A stretch of DNA of 50,150 nucleotides from contig JAJFIK010000063.1 in the NCBI GenBank assembly GCA_021775005.1, forward strand, positions 1 through 50,150. The letters run 5' to 3'. Position 1 is the first letter of the stretch; the number at the start of each line of letters is the position of its first letter. Of this stretch, positions 24,917 through 48,692 are shown one piece after another. Under the pieces are notes generated by a model. It did no database searches, was not told where the DNA came from, and saw nothing but the letters and a program-made list of their open reading frames with translations. A program made the translations under genes and the position numbers. The DNA comes from Rhodospirillales bacterium (GTDB lineage: Bacteria; Pseudomonadota; Alphaproteobacteria; JAJFIK01).

Positions 24917-25233
24917 TTTCTCCCTCGAAAAATAACGTTAATAGGTTTGGATCAACAGGCGTTGCCGTCGGGCCACACCATTCATTTGTATGGCGCCTTT
25001 ATTTGCATAAACCGGGCCTTTCCGTTGATTTCGCATGGTTGTCCGACGTCGTGAACGATCAAGTACAGGCCGTAATTGGCGCAATCACGAAGCCCTCGGC
25101 GGAAGAATAACTTGTAAGCCCAGCACCGCGGCACAAAACTAGTCCCGACCAATGCAACCGAGCGCGGGGGATGTCGGTTGCACGCCAAAATTATATTTCG
25201 TCGTCCCCCACAGCTGAAGCTCGGGAGGCGAAC
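24917..25233. other. 317-base interval without a convincing gene
   Basis: Between tRNA-Pro and the RTX gene. Open frames exist on both strands (for example to 25110 on plus), but the plus frame runs through the tRNA and neither has a ribosome binding site. The last bases hold GGGAGG at 25223-25228, the ribosome binding site of the RTX gene. No terminator or promoter of clear quality was seen. Confidence 0.5.
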
Positions 25234-26973
25234 ATGGCAGTATTCAATGGGACAAGTGGTAATGACTTTATTAGTGGCGGGGCTGGTGATGATGAAATAA
25301 ATGGCTTTGCCGGTAATGATGGACTTCGAGGTTTTGGTGGTAACGATGTCTTGAATGGCGGCGACGGAGACGACCGTCTGGAAGGTCGCGACGGAGATGA
25401 TATTTTAACCGGAGGAGACGGCAGAGACATCTTTGTATTTCGGCAATTCGGCGGCGATGGTGTCGACACAATTACAGACTTTGAAGTTGGTGTGGATCTT
25501 ATAGAACTTCCATTTGGTGGCATTCAGTTTGATGACCTAACCATCACACAGGTTGGCAGTGACACCGTCATCAGCCATAGTAATACGTTTTACTCCGTCA
25601 ATATCACCCTCTTGAATGTTGATGCCTCAACAATTGATGGGACTATTTTCACCACCCCTTTGTTCACCGATGGGGACGACGTTGTTACGCTCACCCAACA
25701 GCCGGGTTTTTTCTCTGGTTATTTCGTACAGACCGGTGCCGGGAATGATGTCATAACCATGGAAGCATTGCTCGGATATGCCGCACTGGGCGCGGGCGAT
25801 GACACCATTTTTGTTAGCTCAGTGTTCGATTATGGTACGACGATTTTTGGTGACGATGCCGACCTTTTGAACGACACAAATGATGGCAATGACACCATCT
25901 ACATTGCCGGCCTATATGCAGAAGTTCAAGGGGAGGGGGGTGACGACTTCATCGATATTGGTGCTGCTCAGTTTTCGCCATTTAATAATTGGTCAACCTC
26001 GGGCGTTTTCGGCGGATCTGGCAACGATACCATCATCAGTGGTCTATTCGACGATTTCATCAGTGGCGGGTCCGGCGCGGATGTGTTCGCCTTCCGCACC
26101 ATATTTGGCAAGGACATCATTCGCGATTTTGAAGACGGCGTGGATATGCTCGACATGACAGAGGCTGGCGTGACGGCCTTTGAGGACATGTCCATATATC
26201 AGCTGGGCTCTGACACTGTCGTTCAAGTGGGCAACAATGCTGTCATCCTTGCCGGCATTGACGCCGCTGACATTACCGCAGACGACTTCGTCGGCCTTGG
26301 TGCTGGCGGCGGCGGCGGCGGCGGCGGTGGCGGAGGTGGCAACGAGCTTATCGGCACGCCGGACGCAGAGGTCCTTGATGCCTCGGCCGAAACCGATGGC
26401 TTTATCATTTCCGGCCTTGGGGGCAACGACACGCTGATCGGCGGCAGTGGCGGGGACACCCTTTCAGGCGGTCCCGGCACGGACGATGTTACCGGCGGGG
26501 CGGGCGCAGATACATTTGTCTATGTTGATGGCGACGGTGTTGAACGCATTTCCGATTTTGATCCCAGCAGCGGTGATGTCATTGATCTGACCGGCGCGAC
26601 CGGTGTTTCATCCTTTGCTGACCTTCAGGCTAGCTGGACCGCGCGCGCAACATTAACGCGCATCAATTTGCCCGATGGCGGGACTATCGTTCTGACTGGC
26701 GTCACGTCCGATCAACTGAGCGCCGATGACTTCATTTTTTCCGGTGGGGCGGGGCCGTTATCGGTTCCAAATAGCTCCGAGAGCGACGATGGGGGTGCGT
26801 CGATCATTGGTGATCTCCTCGCTCCCAGCCTTCCAGATCTTGGTAGCCCCGGCGATATTACCGGAAGTGCAGATAATGTATGGGCAATAGAGGACCGGGC
26901 CGAAGGATTTGACGGGCATCAACCGCTTGGCGATTTTGTGTCATTCCAGATATGGGATGATTTTTTGCTCTAA
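25234..26973 (+). CDS. RTX (hemolysin-type calcium-binding repeat) secreted protein
   Basis: A 579-aa acidic protein. Nonapeptide repeats GGxGxDxhx form at least three blocks: residues about 10-70 (GNDFISGGAGDDEINGF and following), a central block about 265-290, and a C-terminal block about 385-430. Each block is followed by a module of the type DxITDFExGxDxIEL found in serralysin C-terminal regions. A run of about a dozen glycines near residues 358-369 links two halves. There is no N-terminal signal peptide, and the hydrophobic/acidic C-terminus (FQIWDDFLL) fits a type I secretion signal. ATG 25234 is chosen for its GGGAGG site; 21 in-frame codons upstream are not RTX-like. No ABC exporter genes are adjacent. 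No catalytic domain is visible, so a structural or adhesive surface role is likely but unproven. Confidence 0.85.
   Translation: MAVFNGTSGNDFISGGAGDDEINGFAGNDGLRGFGGNDVLNGGDGDDRLEGRDGDDILTGGDGRDIFVFRQFGGDGVDTITDFEVGVDLIELPFGGIQFDDLTITQVGSDTVISHSNTFYSVNITLLNVDASTIDGTIFTTPLFTDGDDVVTLTQQPGFFSGYFVQTGAGNDVITMEALLGYAALGAGDDTIFVSSVFDYGTTIFGDDADLLNDTNDGNDTIYIAGLYAEVQGEGGDDFIDIGAAQFSPFNNWSTSGVFGGSGNDTIISGLFDDFISGGSGADVFAFRTIFGKDIIRDFEDGVDMLDMTEAGVTAFEDMSIYQLGSDTVVQVGNNAVILAGIDAADITADDFVGLGAGGGGGGGGGGGGNELIGTPDAEVLDASAETDGFIISGLGGNDTLIGGSGGDTLSGGPGTDDVTGGAGADTFVYVDGDGVERISDFDPSSGDVIDLTGATGVSSFADLQASWTARATLTRINLPDGGTIVLTGVTSDQLSADDFIFSGGAGPLSVPNSSESDDGGASIIGDLLAPSLPDLGSPGDITGSADNVWAIEDRAEGFDGHQPLGDFVSFQIWDDFLL
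26305..26326 (+). repeat. GGC trinucleotide repeat coding polyglycine
   Basis: Consecutive GGC codons inside the RTX gene, extended on both sides by other Gly codons (26299-26340). As an in-frame triplet repeat it may vary in length without breaking the gene. Confidence 0.7.
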
Positions 26974-27065: not shown

Positions 27066-28868
27066 ATGAGACACAGATTCGACATATCCCGATGGGGGGG
27101 CGTAGGGCTGGTCCTTGCCGCCTTGATAAGTTTGCCGCCCGCGTCGCTGGCGCGGGATTACGGACCCTATTCGCAAGCCGATCTGATCTCCCTTGAGCTG
27201 GCGCATATGGCACCCAGCGCTACTCAACCTTTCGCAGATGCCTTGGCGCGCTCAGAGCTCTTTGAACAGCGCATGCAGGTCAACTTTATTCATCAAAACC
27301 CACAGCGCGCTTTGGTGCTCTATGACTGGTCCGGTGATCCACACACCGCGCGGCGGGCGCGGCTCTCAGCAATCATGATCCGTAACTTGTTGGGGCACTT
27401 CAATTTGGAAGTCCATCTGCACCGCGTAAACGACTATGAAGCAGGGCAGATGGAAGGTTATGACGCGACCATCTATGTGGGAGAGATTTTCGACAATCCC
27501 TTGCCATCTGCGTTTCTTCGCGATGCCTCGCGCACGGAAAATACGCTCATATGGATGCAGTATAATTTGCATCAGCTCGAACAATTTCGCGCTGGGTCGG
27601 TTCGCGCGCGCGGGCTCATCCTCGAAGGAAGCGGGGACGAAGTAGTCGCCAGCGGCGCCCAGGTGCGCCCAGCGTTTTATGACACGGTGTTCTATCGCGG
27701 GTTGCCATTTGTAAAATTTTTTGCGCCTGCTACGGATGAACATCATGCTCTATATGATCCGGCGATGGTGCCGGTTTATGCCACCGCCGAAACTCAAACC
27801 CTTGTTGAAATAGGAAACAGCCAGACCGGCGAAGTACGGCCCTACATTACGCGGCAGCGCAATTTTTGGTTTGTTGCCGAAATACCGCTGAGTTTTACCG
27901 GGGCGCGAGACCGTTATCTTGTTTTCGCAGATATTCTTCATGACATGCTGGGACTCTCTCACGATGCGACTCACCAAGCGATGGTGCGGATCGAGGACCT
28001 TCACGCACAAGTTGGTCTTCAGGGGTTTCATCGTTTGACAGGTCTTCTTGAGCGATACGATGTGCCTTACTCCTTGGCTGTCATTCCAGAGTTTCGAGAA
28101 GTTCGTGCAGACGGCACTGTTTTATCTGTGCCAGTGGATTCCGCCCCCGCAACTCAATTTCGAGAGGCAATGGCCGATGCCGTCGATCAAGGCGCGCAGG
28201 TCATTATGCATGGGGTGACGCACCAATATGCGGATCGGCCCAATCCTGACCGGGGCACGTCAGGCGAAGACTTTGAATTTTGGGATGCCGCCAACGACGG
28301 GCCGGTTGAGGACAACAGCATCGAATGGGCCATGCGGCGCACGCAGCGAGGGTATGACACCATGGTTCGCGCTGGGTTTCGGCCGACCATCTTTGAAACT
28401 CCACACTACCTTGGCTCGCCCAACGCCTCATTAGGCGCGCGCTTGGTCTTTCCTTACACATACCAACGTGTGGCCTATTATGGTGCAGATGACCTCAACC
28501 CCTTCGCAGAGGTGCTTCGTGACGAATACGAAATTCAGTTCTTTCCCTACATGATTTATCAAGATCACTACGGCCAAGTCGTGGTGCCGGAAAACCTGGG
28601 CAACCTTCAGTACACGCCACCGGTCCAATCAGCGGATTACCTTTTGCGAAATGCGGCTTATGGATTGGCGGTTCGCGATGGCGTCGCCTCGCTGTTCGTG
28701 CACTCGTTCTTATTTGTGCCCTATATGGGCGTGCCGGCCTATTCAGACTTCACAAGTGTCATCGAAGGCATTTCAGCCATGGGATACGACTGGGTCGGGG
28801 TGGATGAGTATTTGACCCAACATGGGATGGACCCGGACGCCAGAGTTGGCAACACGACAAGCGACTAA
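27066..28868 (+). CDS. DUF2334 / polysaccharide deacetylase-like secreted protein
   Basis: 600 aa with a signal peptide (about 1-29, ending SLARD). The N-terminal half (about 80-280) includes LVLYDWSGD and DATIYVGEIFDN, resembling the part of YdaL-like proteins before the catalytic fold. The C-terminal half (about 300-590) is a deacetylase-type barrel: MVRIEDLHAQVG provides the acidic metal region and VIMHGVTHQY the His pair, with ETPHYLGS and LFVHSFLF later. The family is related to carbohydrate esterase 4 enzymes; the true substrate is unknown, possibly an exopolysaccharide. It follows the RTX gene by 92 bases and is probably expressed separately. Confidence 0.82.
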   Translation: MRHRFDISRWGGVGLVLAALISLPPASLARDYGPYSQADLISLELAHMAPSATQPFADALARSELFEQRMQVNFIHQNPQRALVLYDWSGDPHTARRARLSAIMIRNLLGHFNLEVHLHRVNDYEAGQMEGYDATIYVGEIFDNPLPSAFLRDASRTENTLIWMQYNLHQLEQFRAGSVRARGLILEGSGDEVVASGAQVRPAFYDTVFYRGLPFVKFFAPATDEHHALYDPAMVPVYATAETQTLVEIGNSQTGEVRPYITRQRNFWFVAEIPLSFTGARDRYLVFADILHDMLGLSHDATHQAMVRIEDLHAQVGLQGFHRLTGLLERYDVPYSLAVIPEFREVRADGTVLSVPVDSAPATQFREAMADAVDQGAQVIMHGVTHQYADRPNPDRGTSGEDFEFWDAANDGPVEDNSIEWAMRRTQRGYDTMVRAGFRPTIFETPHYLGSPNASLGARLVFPYTYQRVAYYGADDLNPFAEVLRDEYEIQFFPYMIYQDHYGQVVVPENLGNLQYTPPVQSADYLLRNAAYGLAVRDGVASLFVHSFLFVPYMGVPAYSDFTSVIEGISAMGYDWVGVDEYLTQHGMDPDARVGNTTSD

Positions 28869-43235: not shown

Positions 43236-43964
43236 CTAGGCCCATCCGCCTGCTAGCGGAATGATATGGCCGGTCATAAACCCACACCCATCACTGGCGA
43301 GAAAAGCCACAATGTTTGCAGCCTCTGATTGTTTGCCCAGACGACGAAGGGGTATGCGGCTGAGGATTCTTTCACGCACCTTTTCGTCCTCCATAAGCGA
43401 GGCGGGAAAATAGGTTGGGCTCTCAATGAAATTTGGGGCGAGGGCGTTCACTTGAATATTCCAGCGGGCCAACTCCTGCGCCAGCGAGACCGTCAGCGCA
43501 TTCGCAGCCCCGCGCGCAGCGACATAAGCACTATAGTTTGGCAAGCCCCGAAGCGGCGCAGCTGAAGTTACGAATATAATCTTGCCGCTGCCTTGCGATT
43601 TCATCAGCGGGACCAGCGCGCCGGTCCGCAAGACGGCGTTATGGACCAAGCGGGTCATGGTTTCTGTGAGCAGCTCTGCGGTGATGTCCTCAATGGATGC
43701 CTTGTGTGCGGGGTAGGCGTCATTATTGACAATGGCGTCAATGTGCCCATGAAGGGACATAACCGCGTCATGTAATTCAGCCGGCGATTGGGCGGCAATT
43801 GGGGCGAGTGCAGGATGCTCATCTTGAAACACCTCGCGTACCTTTTGGTCCTCAAATGCAGCATCATGGCAAAGCACGGTGAACCCATCGTTGGCCAAAG
43901 CGAGGGCCGAAGACGTGCCGACAAAGTGGAGGACGTCTGTCACCAGCGCGACGCGGGGGGCCAT
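43236..43964 (-). CDS. halohydrin dehalogenase (HHDH), short-chain dehydrogenase-like fold
   Basis: 242 aa. It looks like a short-chain dehydrogenase but lacks the glycine-rich NAD(P) motif and the catalytic Lys. Instead it has both halohydrin dehalogenase signatures: T-x4-F-x-G at residues 9-16 (TDVLHFVG) and S-x12-Y-x3-R with Ser134, Tyr147 and Arg151, equivalent to Ser132-Tyr145-Arg149 of HheC. HHDHs convert vicinal halohydrins to epoxides and release halide, and run backward with azide, cyanide or nitrite. The segment APNFIESPTYFP matches the HheC halide-pocket strand. Start at ATG 43964 is supported by AAGGAGAT four bases upstream; the open frame extends farther without support. No epoxide hydrolase or haloacid enzyme is adjacent. 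The activity is predicted, not shown. Confidence 0.88.
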   Translation of the reverse strand: MAPRVALVTDVLHFVGTSSALALANDGFTVLCHDAAFEDQKVREVFQDEHPALAPIAAQSPAELHDAVMSLHGHIDAIVNNDAYPAHKASIEDITAELLTETMTRLVHNAVLRTGALVPLMKSQGSGKIIFVTSAAPLRGLPNYSAYVAARGAANALTVSLAQELARWNIQVNALAPNFIESPTYFPASLMEDEKVRERILSRIPLRRLGKQSEAANIVAFLASDGCGFMTGHIIPLAGGWA

Positions 43965-44274
43965 TGGGATCTCCTTGGGGCGAGGCGGTTGTGATGTCCT
44001 TGTGGCATATCTCAGGGTGGGAATGCGATCCCGAAGGCAAAATTGGCTCAATCTATGGGTTTGGGGGCCATTGGGATGCCGCAAGGGGCCTGAGTCGCCC
44101 TTGACGGGAATCCACTTTTCCCAATACTCTTATGTGGTTAACCAGCGCTCTTTGCGTTGCGGGTGTGCACCAGCCTGAGAAAAGGTTTTCTGAGGGCCAT
44201 CAAGGGCAACCACATCCCCAGCGCATTGTGATATGGTTAACAGCGAGGCCATTGACGGGGCGGGCTGACCAGGG
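43965..44274. other. 310-base divergent region between the dehalogenase and cold-shock genes
   Basis: Holds the ribosome binding site of the dehalogenase (minus strand), a promoter-like pair at 44101-44130, and two similar elements TGGTTAACCAGCG (44134-44146) and TGGTTAACAGCG (44233-44244), roughly 100 bases apart. No convincing gene. Confidence 0.5.
44101..44130 (+). promoter_or_regulatory. putative promoter of the cold-shock gene
   Basis: TTGACG (44101-44106), 18 bases, TACTCT (44125-44130). This would give a long leader of about 140 bases before ATG 44275, as seen for cold-shock mRNAs. Confidence 0.35.
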
Positions 44275-44820
44275 ATGAGTGACAGCGTTACTGAATCTAT
44301 CGCAGCAACCGATGAAGACGCGCGGAAAATCACCGGCGCGATCAAATGGTTTGACCCCAAAAAAGGCTATGGCTTCATCATCCCGGCGGATGGCACGGGT
44401 GATGTTCTTCTGCACCAGACCCATCTCAGCGAATCCGGTTTTGAAAGTGCACCGGAAGGGGCCACCGTGGTTTGTGATATCGTCGAGCGCAGCAAAGGCC
44501 TTCAGGCCATCAAGATTTATGAGATCGACATCACTACGGCGGTGGTCCACGAAGACAATCCCGAAACCACTGCAAAGAATGTGCGGCAACATGTGCAGGC
44601 CGAAAGCGACTCCGTTGAAGTCGAAGTGAAGTGGTTCAACCGTTCTAAAGGCTTTGGCTTTGTCACCCGTGGCATGGGCACCCCGGACATTTTTCTCCAT
44701 ATGGAGACCTTGCGGCGCCTGGGTATCAAGGAATTGGCCACCGGCGCGAAACTGATTGTCAAATTCGGCACCGGGCCCCGCGGCTTGATGGTTACTGAGA
44801 TCATCGAGCACGTCTCCTGA
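44275..44820 (+). CDS. two-domain cold-shock protein
   Basis: 181 aa with two cold-shock domains. The first (about 19-88) has RNA-binding KGYGFI (30-35) and DVLLHQ. The second (about 114-180) has KGFGFV (125-130) and DIFLHM. An acidic linker joins them. Double-CSD proteins are typical of alphaproteobacteria and bind single-stranded nucleic acids. ATG 44275 follows AGGG. Confidence 0.93.
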
Positions 44821-46078: not shown

Positions 46079-46155
46079 GGTCCCATAGCTCAACTGGATA
46101 GAGCAGCTGCCTTCTAAGCAGCAGGTTGCAGGTTCGAGTCCTGCTGGGATCACCA
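46079..46155 (+). tRNA. tRNA-Arg (anticodon TCT), integration target
   Basis: 77 bases. The acceptor GGTCCCA pairs with TGGGATC (one G-U pair), then A and encoded CCA. The anticodon stem GCTGC/GCAGC encloses CTTCTAA, giving anticodon TCT. Its last 46 bases are repeated at 48799-48844, marking it as the attachment site of the following island. Confidence 0.96.
46110..46155 (+). repeat. att-like direct repeat, left copy (in tRNA-Arg 3' half)
   Basis: 46 bases from the anticodon loop to CCA. The copy at 48799-48844 is identical except for one base (G46143 versus A48832). Confidence 0.9.
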
Positions 46156-46509: not shown

Positions 46510-47358
46510 ATGAGTAACAAGAAAAAGAGCAAAGACAGTGCGGTCACTGGCGGAGTGTTCGGAGAAGATCACTTTGAGCCAATAAACAGGCATCTCACGC
46601 CGGGTGGTTTTTCGGTGTCTGATTTGCCGTTAGATCGCACCCTCAACGCTATCCAGTCATTGAACATGCCCTATAGCGAAACGGATAGAATTTCCAACCT
46701 GCTTGGCAATATTGATCCATTAGGTTCAGTAATGCGTGACCAAATGGGAACTTTGCCACCCACTGAGTACAATTCACTTGGAAGTGTCCTTGGACGGCCG
46801 TCTTACATTGATGAGATTTTTACTCCTGGGTCGTCGTCACTTTCCAATTACAGCCCGGAAGCTCGTATCTCTACGCTCGCTGATGATCTTGCCGCGCAGA
46901 TAACGTCAGCAGGTTTAACGCTTGCTGAAATTGATCCGTTCAAGTCGCTTTTGGCAGACCAAGTGGGAACTTTGCCATCCACTGAGTGCAATTCACTTGG
47001 AAGTGTCCTTGGACGGCAAATTCATGCTGGGGCAAATGATTTTCTTTCTTACGTTGGCTCAGAAAAATATGCACCAAGTTCATTTGATTCTAATGCACAT
47101 GAATATGCGCCCACTTCGAAACCGATAAGCAAGCCTTCGGCAAAAAGTACTCGAATAAAAAATTTGGAAATTTTGGGTTCTATGGTGCGTGCACGACGCG
47201 ATGAACTGGGGCTTTCGCAGCAAGAACTTGCTGACATTGCTGGTGTTGGGCGTCGGTTTATTTCCGAGTTTGAGAGGGGTAAGATCACAATTGAGTTCGG
47301 GAAAGCAATTGATGTCTTGAATGCTTGCGGTATCGATTTGGGTGCAAGCTGCCGATGA
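46510..47358 (+). CDS. hipB: HipB-type antitoxin with a long N-terminal extension
   Basis: 282 aa. Only the last 65 residues (218-282) form the HTH_3 repressor expected of HipB: MVRARRDELGLSQQELADIAGV and RRFISEFERGK. HipB proteins are usually 70-100 aa. The first about 215 residues are Ser/Gly/Pro-rich and contain two copies of DQ-x-GTLP-x-TE-x-NSLGSVLGR (residues 77-96 and 150-169), produced by a 60-bp duplication. The extension has no fold I can recognise. The gene overlaps hipA by four bases (ATGA), the normal coupling of antitoxin and toxin. It should repress its own promoter through O1-O4 and neutralise HipA. Confidence 0.85.
   Translation: MSNKKKSKDSAVTGGVFGEDHFEPINRHLTPGGFSVSDLPLDRTLNAIQSLNMPYSETDRISNLLGNIDPLGSVMRDQMGTLPPTEYNSLGSVLGRPSYIDEIFTPGSSSLSNYSPEARISTLADDLAAQITSAGLTLAEIDPFKSLLADQVGTLPSTECNSLGSVLGRQIHAGANDFLSYVGSEKYAPSSFDSNAHEYAPTSKPISKPSAKSTRIKNLEILGSMVRARRDELGLSQQELADIAGVGRRFISEFERGKITIEFGKAIDVLNACGIDLGASCR
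46738..46797 (+). repeat. 60-bp intragenic direct repeat, copy 1
   Basis: Matches 46957-47016 with three substitutions, in frame, offset 219 bases. It codes the first DQ-GTLP-NSLGSVLGR unit of HipB. Confidence 0.9.
46957..47016 (+). repeat. 60-bp intragenic direct repeat, copy 2
   Basis: Second copy of the repeat at 46738-46797, 57 of 60 bases identical. The near identity suggests a recent duplication or recent gene conversion. Confidence 0.9.
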
Positions 47359-48692
47359 CAATTGAGTTAGATGTGTTTCTTGAAGGATATCAAGAACCAA
47401 TTGGGGTAATTGTTGGTGATGAAATCACGAACAACCTGGAGTTCAAATACAGCGACGCTTATTTAGAACGCGAAGACAATGTGCAGTTATCGCTTTCGCT
47501 GCCGATCCAAGAAAAGGAATACAAGGACTCAGAATGCAAAAGCTATTTCACAAATCTAATACAAGAGAACAACTCGCTTGAGACATTAATTGATCAACTA
47601 GGTATTGATAGAAACAACACTGCCGGCATCCTCTATCACATCGGTGCCGATTGCGCTGGCGCAGTATCGTGCGTCCCAAAGGGTTCACCAGCTCCAAAAC
47701 GTCCGGGAGATCTAAGAACTGACTACGATGTGATCGAAAAGGACCAAATTGTAAAAATCATTCACGAACTGAGCGAATACGGTAGATTGCCGGACGGGAC
47801 GAGAGACCCATCACCCGTTGCAGGCGTTCAACCCAAACTAGCTTGCGTATATACTGGTGGCGTATTTCTCCAACCGAAGCCCGGACTCGGCGTACCTACG
47901 ACCCATCTGCTCAAGGTGGTTAAGCGTGGGAGTATCTTAACAAGTAAGCATGAATCCATTGCGCTCAATGTAGCCAAGTCAGTTGGATTAGAAATTCCAG
48001 ATTTTGTTGAAGGTGACTTTAGCGGAGCGATCTCAACAATCTTGCTAGAGAGATACGATAGAACCTTCGACGGCAGCACAATATCGCGAATTCATCAAGA
48101 AGACTTCGCGCAAGCACTAGGACTCCCTCCGCGCCTTAAATATGAAAGGAATGGTGTGATCGGCCGTCGTTTTGACGCGCGATCCATTGTACGAATTCTG
48201 AAAGAGACAACGGCGCCAGCAATTTCAATGCGCAAATTCATCAAGGCGACCTTTGTAAACCTCGCGCTCGGCAATGTAGACAACCATGGCAAAAACCATG
48301 CGTTGCTGTATCGGAAACCAGGGTATCCGACACTCGCTCCATTTTACGATATCGTACCTACCCGGCTAGACAAGCGATATGCAGATCAGTTCTCGTTCAA
48401 TATTGGGTCAGCTGAGAGAATTGACAATCTGACGCCCGAGGACGTTGCAGAGTTCCTAGGACAATTTGGTTTGAAAGCGAGCCAATCTAAGGCGATACTC
48501 AAAAACGAAGTCAAACCTGCAATTGCCTCAATTTCGGAACAAATCGAACACGTAGCTGCCGACGGCCATAAATTGCTGGCTGACTTGATCGCTCAGAATA
48601 CGTCCTACATCTGCAATATCCTTGAATGGGGTGATATAAAAATACCTGTTCGGGATTTATTCGCGCATGATGTTGGCGGCTGGATCGACTAA
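47355..48692 (+). CDS. hipA: HipA-type serine/threonine kinase toxin
   Basis: 445 aa with the HipA N-terminal couple domain (about 1-100) and kinase core. Lys187 in THLLKV is the ATP-binding lysine. GNVDNHGKN (306-314) holds catalytic Asp309, and PFYDIVPT holds metal-binding Asp332. LERYDR and HQEDFAQALGLP are conserved HipA segments. Family members phosphorylate aminoacyl-tRNA synthetases (GltX for E. coli HipA), causing growth arrest. The P-loop region reads SPVAGVQPK, with Ser153 one place off from the autophosphorylated serine of E. coli HipA. ATG 47355 overlaps the hipB stop. Codon use and A+T content differ from the core genes, fitting transfer. Confidence 0.92.
   Translation: MTIELDVFLEGYQEPIGVIVGDEITNNLEFKYSDAYLEREDNVQLSLSLPIQEKEYKDSECKSYFTNLIQENNSLETLIDQLGIDRNNTAGILYHIGADCAGAVSCVPKGSPAPKRPGDLRTDYDVIEKDQIVKIIHELSEYGRLPDGTRDPSPVAGVQPKLACVYTGGVFLQPKPGLGVPTTHLLKVVKRGSILTSKHESIALNVAKSVGLEIPDFVEGDFSGAISTILLERYDRTFDGSTISRIHQEDFAQALGLPPRLKYERNGVIGRRFDARSIVRILKETTAPAISMRKFIKATFVNLALGNVDNHGKNHALLYRKPGYPTLAPFYDIVPTRLDKRYADQFSFNIGSAERIDNLTPEDVAEFLGQFGLKASQSKAILKNEVKPAIASISEQIEHVAADGHKLLADLIAQNTSYICNILEWGDIKIPVRDLFAHDVGGWID

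Follow-up and report, generated by a model that had tools for sequence, protein, structure and literature searches.

The analyzed window, a stretch of 50,150 nucleotides from a Rhodospirillales bacterium, contains an open reading frame for a protein, P0001, which a preliminary description assigned to the halohydrin dehalogenases (HHDHs). These enzymes act on small chlorinated or brominated alcohols, from which they remove the halide with formation of epoxides. The locus raises two questions: is P0001 an HHDH or a cofactor-using short-chain dehydrogenase (SDR), and which role may it have in the cell? The features of the gene are as follows.

43236..43964, minus strand: predicted HHDH gene (P0001, 242 aa) of an A/C-related alphaproteobacterial clade, from open reading frame, motifs, tree and fold
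43971..43976, minus strand: ribosome-binding site AAGGAG, 6 bases 5' of the P0001 ATG, read from the sequence
43917..43940, minus strand: motif 1 codons, T9-x4-F14-x-G16, putative nucleophile pocket
43512..43565, minus strand: motif 2 codons, S134-x12-Y147-x3-R151, predicted catalytic set

The frame is intact from the ATG at 43964 to the stop codon at 43236-43238. Both motifs named in the preliminary description were found at the residues given there: motif 1 (T-x4-F/Y-x-G) reads T9-DVLH-F14-V-G16, and motif 2 (S-x12-Y-x3-R) carries Arg, not Lys. They are the motifs published as diagnostic for HHDHs (PMC4989007; PMC11976700). Together they occurred in only 4 of 20,000 shuffled P0001 sequences, and neither was detected in six paralogous SDRs encoded by this genome or in one SDR from outside. 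Among 50 homologs S134, Y147, R151 and G16 were invariant, T9 was kept in 47 and F14 in 49. The GC content of the gene (0.569) is close to that of the window (0.556) and its composition resembles that of its neighbors; a recent import into the genome is unsupported by this native composition. A plasmid origin was also considered and discarded, a single distant plasmid match being all that was found.

The closest relatives of solved structure were all dehalogenases, ahead of any dehydrogenase: 6A41 (4e-61), HheC (to 6e-43) and HheA (4e-38 to 3e-40). A maximum-likelihood tree of 51 rows was calculated with seven SDRs and with HheA, HheB, HheC and HheD2; HheA3, HheA5 and the G-, E- and F-type HHDHs were left out. 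P0001 and all other HHDHs, these four included, were separated from the seven SDRs by a branch with 100/99 support; hence the tree, a test proposed in the preliminary description, places P0001 outside the cofactor-using SDRs. Its nearest neighbors are a sequence from a congener and one from a metagenome-assembled genome (MAG) labelled Acidobacteriota, in a clade which includes 6A41. In this tree, without HheA3 and HheA5, P0001 joins HheA and HheC at only 89/85 support. The SDR outgroup branches are long and the G, E and F types are absent; therefore, we claim no deep order among the HHDH subtypes. P0001 is part of a large clade of alphaproteobacterial proteins close to the A and C subtypes.

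An AlphaFold monomer model of P0001 had a mean pLDDT of 93.9. Foldseek TM scores were 0.96 for 6A41, 0.93-0.94 for HheC and 0.92 for HheA, as compared to 0.84-0.89 for the listed cofactor-using SDRs. The G-type HHDH 8H8Y scored 0.85-0.86, as the SDRs do, and the fold score therefore speaks for the A/C lineage only.

Of the known enzymes, 6A41 (a 'dehalogenation enzyme', Reyranella-type as judged by its tree position) is most like P0001: both align end to end without gaps at 42% identity and share both motifs and a short C-terminus, but T133, P177 and F179 of P0001 are S, S and Y in 6A41. HheC of Agrobacterium radiobacter AD1 (1PWX, C subtype) is 37% identical and has the Ser-Tyr-Arg set and equivalents of the pocket residues; in contrast to HheC, P0001 has neither the 3-residue insertion in the 178-186 loop nor the C-terminal extension, and its gene shares no operon with an epoxide hydrolase. 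HheA/HheA2 (4Z9F, 1ZMO, A subtype) share both motifs and the short C-terminus, although identity is only about 35%. HheD2 and HheB (7B73, 4ZD6) also carry both motifs and lie on the same side of the HHDH/SDR split, but they form a separate starred clade and their N-terminal half is shorter. On a plasmid of Microbacterium sp. J1-1 (NZ_CP089591.1, L118 2835-7415), a haloalcohol dehalogenase gene almost identical to HheA (4Z9F) adjoins genes for an epoxide hydrolase and a glycerol kinase (glpK) between insertion sequences, an arrangement in which the P0001 gene does not stand.

Comparison of alignment columns paired F12, N176, F186 and Y187 of HheC with F14, N178, Y185 and F186 of P0001, whereas the SDR controls have G, G, and a gap or an unrelated residue there. 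N176, F186 and Y187 line the halide pocket in HheC structures. For F12 this position is documented (PMC11976700). Furthermore, the SDR glycine-rich loop (T-G-x3-G-x-G) is replaced by D10/F14, the catalytic Lys of the Ser-Tyr-Lys set by R151 and the SDR 'PG' by PN, so that P0001 lacks the signature of cofactor-using SDRs. Judged from alignment and model, a nucleophile pocket appears to replace the NAD(P) site. Tree, predicted fold, search of solved structures and pocket residues all support the earlier assignment, and P0001 is very probably a cofactor-independent HHDH of an A/C-related lineage. P84, F86, W139 and L142 of HheC correspond to A86, K88, L141 and Y144 in P0001; as these residues and the C-terminal extension are missing from P0001, neither its substrate range nor its selectivity can be read off from HheC, and the substrate range may differ.

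The dehalogenation reaction is inferred from the family. By analogy with HheC chemistry (PMC4989007), Tyr147 would take the proton from the hydroxyl group of a vicinal haloalcohol, with Arg151 lowering the pKa of Tyr147 and Ser134 holding the substrate oxygen. This oxygen would then displace the halide to give an epoxide, and the halide would leave into the pocket at the position of the SDR NAD(P) site, lined by Phe14, the Asn178 loop and Tyr185/Phe186. In the reverse reaction, the epoxide would be opened by halide, azide, cyanide or nitrite.

The preliminary description had placed the gene alone in a core-like locus. This is true for the neighbors, which include hom, glpX, recJ, a cold-shock protein, NDUS4 and tRNAs; on both sides the genes are unrelated ones, among which we recognized neither an epoxide hydrolase nor a haloacid dehalogenase. 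Two neighbors, context only, are conserved in the genus.

44275..44820, plus strand: two-domain cold-shock protein, divergent neighbor of the P0001 gene
44841..45341, plus strand: DUF192 protein, next beyond the cold-shock gene

For the gene itself the term core-like does not hold. Three genomes of the order, all of one genus, were compared. In one congener (G001), a 63% identical ortholog stands divergent to this cold-shock/DUF192 pair. In the other (G002), recJ, cold-shock and DUF192 genes share a contig but no HHDH is present at that site, and the gene found beyond the cold-shock gene is lipoprotein-like and resembles the gene following the HHDH in G001. Hence, the HHDH gene was either gained or lost here in the course of the history of the genus; it is an accessory gene in a core-like locus. 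The source organism and the congener lacking the gene offer a natural comparison for the role of HHDHs.

Elsewhere in the window, an HTH/HipA pair (46510-48692) with a GC content of about 0.465, lower than the 0.556 of the window, follows just after a tRNA-Arg (46079-46155) and looks like an imported toxin-antitoxin module. Two 600-aa proteins are encoded at 25171-26973 (with RTX-type calcium-binding repeats) and at 27066-28868 (a DUF2334 protein).

Additionally, 385 genomes sampled evenly across Alphaproteobacteria were searched at a match threshold of E 1e-28; not every weak match was read. Matches were obtained in 46 genomes, one of which (G185) proved to be a plain SDR, leaving 45 genomes (about 12%) with an HHDH. 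A few of these HHDHs are B/D-like; most lie in or close to the P0001 clade. Among the named members are Sneathiella, Tepidicaulis, Reyranella and Vineibacter, together with many metagenome-assembled Rhodospirillales. The family, previously described as small, can no longer be called so, and P0001 is an ordinary new member of it, not a rarity. A 62% identical HHDH (L039 6001-6726), whose contig also carries an ECF-sigma-like gene, comes from a MAG labelled Acidobacteriota; this may reflect horizontal transfer or a binning error.

Clustering of flanking genes from 80 clade loci revealed no neighbor common across families. The neighbors are lineage-specific (gene names read from the sequences): purE/purK in Sneathiella, ubiB/coaBC in Reyranella and Sir2 in Rhodobiaceae/Parvibaculaceae. 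An operon partner or conserved neighbor was rejected on these grounds; hence, gene context gives no function.

The view that the gene stands without accompanying enzymes is correct locally but not genome-wide. On other contigs the genome encodes an EHN-domain epoxide hydrolase (contig C27, adjoining secA), whose solved relatives are epoxide hydrolases, and two haloalkane dehalogenases, one of the PRK03592 family (377 bits, cut-off 241) with a lipoprotein-like leader and one of the DhlA/DppA type (327, cut-off 265). In a family search of this genome, no candidate type II haloacid dehalogenase exceeded its cut-off. The haloalkane dehalogenase on contig C5 (L135) is closest to DmmA (3U1T); with its lipoprotein-like N-terminal leader, its predicted location is unusual for an enzyme of this kind.

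Co-occurrence was analyzed in the same 385 genomes; to control roughly for genome size and lifestyle, urease was counted as well. EHN was present in 33 of 45 genomes with an HHDH and in 59 of 340 others (OR 13.1), as compared to an OR of 4.4 for urease. Counted by family (171 in total, inferred from group codes), EHN occurred in 18 of 22 families with an HHDH and 28 of 149 others, urease in 14 of 22 and 40 of 149. Within urease-positive genomes the HHDH-EHN association fell to an OR of 2.3 (p 0.07); lineage and genome size act as confounders. The association suggests, but does not prove, a shared epoxide metabolism with turnover from haloalcohol to epoxide to diol. HLD-II reached an OR of 4.6, no better than the urease control, and the link between haloalkane dehalogenases and HHDHs was dropped as evidence.

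What HHDHs do in nature is still under debate (PMC4989007), and their co-occurrence with epoxide hydrolase genes across Alphaproteobacteria bears on this question. For P0001, a role in turnover or detoxification of natural haloalcohols or epoxides, in which the EHN hydrolase encoded elsewhere in the genome would take over the epoxide, is conceivable, and we put its chances somewhat below even. It is rather unlikely that the widespread clade and the separately encoded EHN hydrolase, joined in some genomes by haloalkane dehalogenases, form a pathway for natural organohalogens whose genes are dispersed over the chromosome; if true, HHDHs would have a native role that goes beyond the breakdown of pollutants.

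A natural job of another kind has perhaps one chance in three: the protein could dehalogenate in vitro and yet serve in the cell to close or open physiological epoxides with a non-halide nucleophile, or in a lyase reaction on some metabolite. Such a job would fit a locus with neither partner gene nor conserved neighbor and the presence of HHDHs in about 12% of the sampled genomes. Moreover, only two known HHDH genes share an operon with an epoxide hydrolase gene, other physiological functions being considered possible (PMC4989007), and the substrates tested on HheC are probably not the natural ones (PMC11976700). The EHN hydrolase and haloalkane dehalogenases of the same genome, and a co-occurrence of HHDH and EHN above the control, argue instead for the turnover of haloalcohols or epoxides.

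That P0001 is an inactive relative, retained by chance and heading for loss, is very improbable: one congener lacks the gene at this locus, but the frame is intact, the ribosome-binding site and all catalytic residues are present, the composition is neighbor-like, and a second species keeps the ortholog in place. A cofactor-using SDR oxidoreductase matching the motifs by chance is scarcely credible and was rejected: every Pfam and NCBIfam match of P0001 is indeed to an SDR model, but the tree split, the motifs, the pocket and NCBIfam scores far below the cut-offs contradict it.

These matches bear out the warning that P0001 would easily be mis-annotated as an SDR: Pfam returned only the generic domains adh_short_C2/adh_short, and NCBIfam only SDR models. 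P0001, one more candidate in a family of biocatalytic interest, illustrates why annotation misses HHDHs. Motif variants were also observed. Three proteins of the HHDH clade (L024 1501-2217, L032 1501-2217 and L117 6001-6717) have T-x4-W-x-G with S-x12-Y-x3-R intact; with Trp in place of F/Y in motif 1, they would escape a standard motif search. Ser replaces Thr in the motif of four others (L035, L042, L098 and L131). Tandem pairs of HHDH-like genes occur in three genomes of one family (L120, L132 and G295:C32:13782-15239), where at least one copy is without the Thr of motif 1.
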